From Deltaproteobacteria bacterium (lineage in GTDB: Bacteria > Desulfobacterota > Desulfuromonadia > Geobacterales > Pseudopelobacteraceae): a stretch of DNA of 64,000 nucleotides. Positions 48,137-49,842 of this stretch are shown here, in pieces. Every line of letters starts with the position of its first letter. Position 1 is the stretch's first letter. The translations under genes were made by a program, and so were the position numbers. Below the pieces are notes generated by a model. It saw only the letters and a list, made by a program, of their open reading frames with translations, did no database searches and was not told the DNA's origin. The DNA is taken from the NCBI GenBank assembly GCA_021779135.1, contig JAJYBH010000001.1:25993-89992 (forward strand). The letters are read 5' to 3'.

Positions 48137-49027
48137 ATGTCTCAACTCGTCATGCAAACTGATTTTCCCGGACTTAACCTGATCACCCGCGGCAAGGTCC
48201 GGGACATTTATGACCTGGGCGACACGCTGCTGCTGGTCACCTCCGACCGCATATCCGCCTTTGACGTCATCATGAACGAGCCGATTCCGGACAAAGGTTT
48301 CGTTCTGACTCAGATCTCGACCTTCTGGTTTCGCCAGATGGCCGATATTGTGCCCAATCACATTATCTCAACCGATGTGGCCGATTACCCTGCTGTCTGC
48401 CAGCCCTATGCAGACGTGCTGAGGGGCCGCTCGATGTGGGTAAAAAAAGCCAAACCACTGGCTGCGGAGTGTATCGTGCGTGGATACGTCTCCGGCTCGG
48501 GCTGGAAGGATTACAAGGCCACCGGCTCCATCTGCGGCATCAAGTTGCCGGCGGGGCTGAAAGAGTCCGAACGCCTTCCCGAACCGATCTTCACCCCCTC
48601 TACCAAGGCCGATTTGGGCACTCACGATGAGAATATTTCCTTCGATGAGATGGCCGAAGTCTGTGGTCGCGAGTTGGCCGAACAGGCCCGCGAATATACA
48701 CTCAGGATTTACAGCCGCGCCCGTGACCTGGCCGCCGAAAAAGGGATCATCATTGCTGATACCAAGTTCGAGTTCGGCGTGTTTGAAGGGAAGCTGATCA
48801 TCATCGATGAGTGCATGACCCCGGATTCCAGCCGTTTCTGGCCCCAGGACCAGTATCAGCCCGGCGGACCGCAGCCCAGCTTCGACAAACAGTTTCTGCG
48901 CGATTATCTGGAGACCCTTGATTGGGGCAAGAGCGCGCCGGCTCCGCCGCTGCCGTCAGAAATTGTCGAGAAGACCGCCGCAAAGTATCGCGAGGCACTG
49001 CTGCGCATTACCGGAATCAGCGTGTAG
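48137..49027 (+). CDS. purC: SAICAR synthase
   Basis: 296 aa. Joins CAIR and aspartate with ATP in purine synthesis. Seen: [45 protein letters not shown] and [13 protein letters not shown]. This longer form resembles yeast ADE1-type enzymes more than the 240-aa E. coli one. Ribosome site AGGAGG; ends at a clear terminator. Confidence 0.97.
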
Positions 49028-49053
49028 ACCCTTTCGGATACCTCTGCATCTCG

Positions 49054-49083
49054 AAGCGGGCCTCTCTGGGCCCGCTTTTTTTT
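49054..49083 (+). terminator. Intrinsic terminator after purC
   Basis: AAGCGGGCC (49054-49062) pairs with GGCCCGCTT (49069-49077), loop TCTCTG, then a run of eight T (49076-49083). Confidence 0.92.
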
Positions 49084-49102: not shown

Positions 49103-49131
49103 TTGGAAATTGTCAATTATTGCGCTATAGT
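49103..49131 (+). promoter_or_regulatory. Promoter of the 59-aa gene
   Basis: TTGGAA (49103-49108), 17 bases, TATAGT (49126-49131), 47 bases before the start codon. With the terminators on both sides this makes a free-standing one-gene unit. Confidence 0.6.
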
Positions 49132-49178
49132 ATTCGTCATGCTGGATAACAAATCACGTACCATGGAGAGATGACGAC

Positions 49179-49358
49179 ATGAAGCTGGATGAAATCAGAG
49201 AAATTGCAAAACAACATAACATCAAGGCGGGAAAGATGAAGAAGGCGGATCTGATACGTGCCATCCAGCAGGCGGAAGGCAATGAGGTCTGTTTTGACAC
49301 CGGCAAGGCTGCAACCTGTGGTCAGCACACCTGTCTGTGGAGTGATGACTGTCAGTAA
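49179..49358 (+). CDS. 59-aa SAP-like protein with four cysteines
   Basis: Starts at ATG 49179, with GGAGAG eight bases upstream, and ends at TAA 49356-49358. Residues 1-33 form a two-helix SAP/Rho-N-like motif (LDEIREIAKQHNIK, then MKKADLIRAIQQAEG), a nucleic-acid-binding fold. The tail has Cys38, Cys47, Cys52 and Cys58, which could bind a metal. It has its own promoter and terminator. I believe similar small proteins occur in other Geobacter-like genomes, but could not check. Function unknown; a small DNA- or RNA-binding protein is the inference. Confidence 0.8.
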   Translation: MKLDEIREIAKQHNIKAGKMKKADLIRAIQQAEGNEVCFDTGKAATCGQHTCLWSDDCQ

Positions 49359-49378
49359 TTCAGTCTGATCCCTTATCA

Positions 49379-49424
49379 CCCCCTTTCCCTTCTTATCATG
49401 GATGGGAAGGGGGCGGACGTTTTT
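49379..49424 (+). terminator. Terminator after the 59-aa gene
   Basis: CCCCC-TTT-CCC (49379-49389) pairs with GGGAAGGGGG (49404-49413) with one bulged T; a short T run follows at 49420-49424. Its right end touches the end of the hemerythrin pseudogene. Confidence 0.7.
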
Positions 49425-49842
49425 CATGCATGCACGGCAGTGCTCCTCAGAAATTTACCCTGCTTCACATCCACCGTGGATATGTGGTGTATCAACCATT
49501 GCAACAAACAAGGTTGGTTTCGACGACATGATGAAGCGCGACCCCTTCCCCGTTGATCTCCCCCTTTAGATCGGTCAGATGGGCGACAAACGAATTGTGC
49601 CCTGGTTAATGGGCCGAATGGTCGCGCTGCCCGGGCTACGTCTGTATACGTTCCTCATCTCTGAAATGCTTGATCACATACTCGTCCAGAAAACCGAACA
49701 GAGGTTTCAACTCATTATCCCCTTGCCGGACTCTCAGGCCTTCAGCAGCGGGTCACAGTGTGGCCGCAGCGTTTTGTACTGATTGTCGATCTCCGTTACA
49801 CTGACAGAAAGCGAATCTCTCCATCCTATTCCCAGGTGTCTG
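49424..49842 (-). pseudogene. Decayed bacteriohemerythrin gene
   Basis: Reading minus from 49842, pieces of one hemerythrin appear in order across frames: GWRDSLSVSVTEIDNQYKTL, then after an in-frame TGA and a frame change LKPLFGFLDEYVIKHFRDEE. After more stops come FVAHLTDLKGEINGEGVA and HHVVETNL, and after one further one-base shift WLIHHISTVDVKQGKFLR, ending at TGA 49426-49424. The total (about 139 codons) equals a normal bacteriohemerythrin, an oxygen-binding diiron protein. The HF..EE metal motif survives, while the initiator and several His-containing parts are lost. It begins inside the last codons of the Lon-like gene. Confidence 0.88.

Follow-up and report, generated by a model that had tools for sequence, protein, structure and literature searches.

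Does the short open reading frame (ORF) downstream of purC in the window, i.e. the whole 64,000-nucleotide stretch of Deltaproteobacteria DNA analyzed here, represent a gene, and if so, what could a protein of 59 amino acids with four cysteines do? The ORF is located on the plus strand at 49179–49358 (stop codon included), runs from ATG to TAA and encodes the protein MKLDEIREIAKQHNIKAGKMKKADLIRAIQQAEGNEVCFDTGKAATCGQHTCLWSDDCQ, whose cysteines are arranged as C38-x8-C47-x4-C52-x5-C58. These coordinates and this spacing had been given exactly by a first-pass annotation of the same DNA. The designation as a gene for a Rho_N plus four-cysteine protein is based on the ORF and its translation, tblastn, alignments and dN/dS analysis.

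The purC gene is located at 48137–49027 and the 59-amino-acid gene begins 151 bp beyond its end; between them, a terminator scan detected an intrinsic terminator of purC at 49053–49078. It is followed by a promoter-like site on the plus strand (TTGGAA-17-TATAGT, 49103–49131; scan score 9/12). When the upstream regions of 12 orthologues are aligned, the element CTGGAAA and the hexamer TATAcT reappear at corresponding positions, which supports a promoter at this site. The ATG is preceded by the ribosome-binding region tggagagatgacgac (49164–49178, plus strand), as read from the sequence, and the orthologues are likewise preceded by purine-rich ribosome sites of the GGAG or GGGAG type. At the 3′ side, a strong hairpin is predicted on the plus strand at 49380–49413 (folding energy −27.1 kcal/mol, z −2.8). 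It is only a plausible terminator of the gene, because the U-run at 49420–49424 starts about 6 nt past the stem and the hairpin is absent from the list of the terminator scan. The first-pass annotation had described a self-contained unit with a promoter at 49103 and a terminator at 49379; the promoter part of this description gained support from the recurring core, while the terminator part stayed at plausible.

With tblastn, relatives were found in 51 of 57 related genomes with E-values down to 5e-29. Compared with the closest relatives, pN/pS was about 0.09/0.84 (NG86, pairwise), and the median dN/dS over 124 unsaturated, non-independent pairs was 0.17 (NG86). The dN/dS ratio had been set as a refutation test in the first-pass annotation, and at about 0.17 it is not near 1. 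Judged by these substitution patterns, the 59-amino-acid gene is confirmed as real and as being under purifying selection. A spurious, untranslated chance reading frame could be suspected since the ORF is short and is overlapped by an antisense ORF of 96 amino acids (49137–49427). However, conservation at the protein level is strong with synonymous sites saturated, the start and the ribosome-site region are conserved, and so is the promoter footprint, whereas many relatives carry a disrupted antisense frame, which is non-conserved and was rejected as a gene. These conservation data refute the chance-frame explanation, whose probability we regard as practically nil.

The N-terminal half, residues 1–32 (49179–49274, plus strand), comprises two predicted helices at residues 3–12 and 22–32 according to Pfam and AlphaFold2. 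It matches Pfam Rho_N (PF07498) with an E-value of 6.9e-7 and 29.6 bits, thereby passing the gathering score of 24.9, whereas SAP (PF02037) reaches 19.5 bits and stays below its gathering score of 23.9. The original assignment to a two-helix SAP/Rho-N-like motif was therefore borne out, with Rho_N as the better fit. SAP and HeH/LEM (PF12949) belong to the same small helix-turn-helix architecture class, yet the protein scores below the Pfam cut-offs of both. Among 113 diverse members of the family, 89 match Rho_N at E ≤ 0.01, and K22 is retained in 108 of 111 aligned members. The best relevant solved structure found by sequence is Rho itself (3l0o), a weak match with an E-value of 0.086. Rho_N, the N-terminal helical module of the terminator Rho, is likewise a two-helix module with an M(K/R)K..LI.AI signature. 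In contrast to Rho, the 59-amino-acid protein is free-standing: it stops at residue 59, and both the cold-shock RNA-binding domain and the ATPase ring domains are absent. It also differs from Rho_N by running straight into a four-cysteine module, which Rho_N does not have. Since Rho_N and SAP domains also act in protein contacts, nucleic-acid binding by this half is uncertain.

The four-cysteine module was delimited by alignments to residues 29–58 (49263–49352, plus strand) with the pattern IQxxEGNxxCFx(5-8)CxQxxCxWRxDC. Among close relatives, A10, K22, AIQ (28–30), E33, N35, the four cysteines, Q49 and W54, among others, are invariant, and in the alignment of 111 members this holds for Q30, E33 and the four cysteines. 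The cysteines are also invariant across members with differing N-termini. Cysteine invariance in the wider alignments is partly by construction, as the members were collected using the cysteine pattern. Loci collected from GTDB contigs with a pattern of the Rho_N half carry the four cysteines in 79 of 79 cases. When all fetched loci were searched with a profile that itself includes the cysteines and may miss members lacking them, 222 distinct hits were obtained, of which 217 carry all four. Conservation of the cysteines had been the other refutation test of the first-pass annotation, and it held in these hits. The five exceptions consist of three misplaced or spurious hits, one hit at a contig edge and one diverged member (L304, G273:C77), in which C38 and C52 are both replaced by Tyr and C47 and C58 are kept; only the latter looks like a genuine cysteine loss. 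The joint loss of C38 and C52 in this member could be a hint at how the cysteines pair. No exchange of Cys to His was seen among the four-cysteine hits. As far as the alignments tell, the four cysteines together with Q30 and E33 are the most conserved part of the protein.

An AlphaFold2 model computed without metal from the 111-sequence alignment, in which two sequences from plasmid records were left out, reached a mean pLDDT of 90 (about 85 in the tail), with helices at residues 3–12, 22–32 and 55–58. It superseded an earlier model from 29 close sequences with a tail pLDDT of 56. The structure prediction, too, had been proposed at the outset, and it returned the expected two-helix N-terminal half. 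A profile search found no relative of the four-cysteine part among solved structures, and a fold search with the AlphaFold2 model gave no significant match.

Using the four-cysteine module alone as query, relatives with other N-termini were detected. In one group (L246, L251, L252, L256–L260), the module follows a CxxC..SHGLCxxC ribbon-like domain. These proteins have the same C-terminal module (QxxEGNxDCFx..CDQxxCxYRxxC), while another cysteine-rich domain, without a Pfam match above the cut-off, makes up their N-terminal half. In other members the module is joined to basic tails rich in Lys, Ala and Pro (L134, L247–L249), or it has almost no N-terminal half and the N-terminal helix is absent (L140, L245, L287). 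Also, three genomes belonging to a single genus encode PAS-HisKA-HATPase kinases (L132, 1683–3092; L133; L255) whose C-terminus is formed by a Rho_N-like half with the four-cysteine module; in these fusions the K21/K22 pair is absent and the cysteines are kept. A DsbA-like gene is located upstream of the kinase fusion in L132. The evidence points to a separate module that is reused on several N-termini. The first-pass annotation was right about the cysteines, but it had regarded them as the tail of a SAP-like protein, a view that agrees less well with these findings. The occurrence of the module in kinase fusions and on ribbon-like or basic N-termini fits a sensory or regulatory role, for which the basic N-termini may represent one type of output.

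Small regulators with a comparable set of cysteines are known from actinobacteria, where the WhiB family comprises small [4Fe-4S] proteins. The likeness, which is an analogy, consists in the very small size, four invariant cysteines, the C-x5-C spacing of the last two, and a basic plus an acidic residue before the final cysteine; the spacing ahead of this C-x5-C pair differs. The WhiB profile of Pfam gave no match to the 59-amino-acid protein at E ≤ 10, and no solved WhiB protein was found by profile search. With four conserved cysteines in 217 of 222 hits, the family also agrees with zinc-binding Cys4 proteins. In 113 members, Pfam matches over the module were limited to two weak Trefoil matches and one weak peptide match, and in the window protein the module was not covered by NCBIfam. 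A search of the open-access literature found no paper on this family. Because Rho_N is already known, the module lacks Pfam and NCBIfam coverage and no such paper was found, the four-cysteine module and its combination with Rho_N would be the new element.

How could these parts work together? We infer a small protein of the cytosol whose Rho_N-type two-helix module passes without a break into a compact module with four cysteines. The four cysteines would bind one metal center, either Zn2+ or an iron-sulfur cluster, or serve as a thiol switch, and binding of a nucleic acid or a partner by the basic helical half would change with the state of this center. The chances are about even that it is a cytosolic protein of the nucleic-acid-binding type whose Cys4 module responds to redox state or to a metal (Zn or Fe-S) and is coupled to binding; the chemistry of the cysteines, the binding of nucleic acids and a coupling between them are all inferred. 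Retention of the four cysteines, purifying selection, the Rho_N match, retention of K22, the kinase fusions and the pLDDT of 90 count for this coupled function. The lack of a solved relative of the cysteine part, of a fold match and of a universal neighbor showing the pathway counts against it. Regarding the metal, the sequence would fit Zn and Fe-S alike. A more far-reaching proposal, which we put forward tentatively as a possibility, is that an undescribed sensory domain, based on Fe-S or on thiols, makes up the four-cysteine part. In the course of evolution it would have been joined to several modules of the nucleic-acid-binding type and to histidine kinases, giving small regulators in Desulfobacterota, Nitrospirota and part of the Pseudomonadota a redox or metal input in common.

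The main rivals of the coupled function are a structural zinc and a protein-adaptor role. A purely structural Zn could simply hold together a tiny nucleic-acid-binding protein associated with the nucleoid or RNA, with nothing being sensed. The tail of so tiny a protein would be hard to fold without metal or disulfides, the module is repeatedly paired with Rho_N and basic tails, and retention of Cys4 is typical of structural sites. However, sensing would be more natural in the PAS histidine kinases to which this module is fused as well, and the lack of any Cys-to-His exchange would be unusual for a purely structural site, so that we consider this explanation somewhat improbable. The kinase fusions also speak for another division of labor, in which the module senses or binds a partner and the Rho_N half is a protein-protein adaptor that does not bind nucleic acids. 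The missing N-terminal helix in L140, L245 and L287, where the cysteine module stays, and the absence of K21/K22 in the kinase form agree with such an adaptor. In contrast, the Rho_N half is rich in lysine in most members, 108 of 111 retaining K22, and others have Lys-rich tails instead; an adaptor thus appears unlikely to us.

A disulfide-bonded protein that is active in the oxidized state, i.e. a small stress or envelope peptide, would explain the even number of conserved cysteines, the weak Trefoil match in two members and the fact that C38 and C52 were lost together in L304. Yet the sequence has neither an N-terminal signal nor a hydrophobic segment, and the kinase-fused copies of the module should be cytosolic since they follow the HATPase domain. 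We therefore rate an oxidized peptide as very unlikely. If the module, as in the coupled function, binds a cluster or zinc, it would offer a small unit, easy to purify and to mutate, with which to study how gene control is linked to metal or redox conditions in iron- and sulfur-cycling bacteria, and a name for hundreds of small proteins that are 'hypothetical' or missed. The family itself is strongly selected and occurs in many bacteria that cycle iron and sulfur; a large share of the Desulfobacterota genomes has it, as do members of other phyla, and its most conserved part lacks a catalogue entry.

The module profile matched 122 of 395 genomes (~31%) of the phylum to which the window belongs, 31 of 148 (21%) in a sample centered on a Nitrospira genome, 63 of 299 (21%) in a Pseudomonadota sample centered on a Lysobacterales genome and 2 of 149 in a sample centered on an Aminicenantes genome. 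In the Pseudomonadota sample nearly all matches recur at a spacing of four in the order in which the genomes were drawn, which places them in one subgroup. The genome of the window holds three copies of the family. Its paralogues are located at G000:C177:4303–4476 and G000:C174:9291–9461 (L144, L145), one after a gene for a YHS-domain protein, the other between a glycosyltransferase-type gene and ppk. On mobile elements, two plasmid members (one Leptospirillum, one Megamonas) and one member on one viral contig were detected, and none in the phage records searched; a phage or plasmid origin was rejected on these counts. The member on plasmid p49879.2 of Leptospirillum ferrooxidans (L146, 23784–23957) is missing from the PLSDB gene table, which lists an antisense ORF instead; this table is incomplete and the original record may differ. 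The expectation that gene callers would overlook such proteins thus found support in this one case; the member on the Megamonas funiformis plasmid (L147), which starts directly past a recombinase gene, is annotated as 'hypothetical protein'.

In Geobacteraceae, the syntenic order is SurN-like chaperone, purC, the 59-amino-acid gene, bacteriohemerythrin (opposite strand), Lon-like protease, HD-domain protein and ligA, with protein names taken from reading of the sequences. In this group, purC is present at 43 loci, including the distant and possibly non-syntenic match L311, and 38 of the 43 also have the hemerythrin. In the window the bacteriohemerythrin gene (49359–49840, minus strand) is decayed, with two in-frame stops and frame changes; the remnant has about 41–58% identity (best E-value about 1e-32, tblastn) to orthologues from the syntenic loci, most of which have an intact gene at this position. 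At the same-genus loci L038 and L059 no bacteriohemerythrin match was obtained at the threshold used. Across about 60–70 diverse loci outside the Geobacteraceae purC locus, no universal operon partner was found. Recurring neighbors are histidine kinases, response regulators, copper-type ATPases and glycogen or sugar genes (glycogen synthase, GalT, GH57, phosphorylase); they were rejected as conserved partners, kinases being common everywhere and the others having been picked out post hoc. In several lineages, members adjoin glycogen synthase, GH57 or GalT genes (L108, L118, L119, L111, L227, L232), a post hoc observation that may be due to chance.
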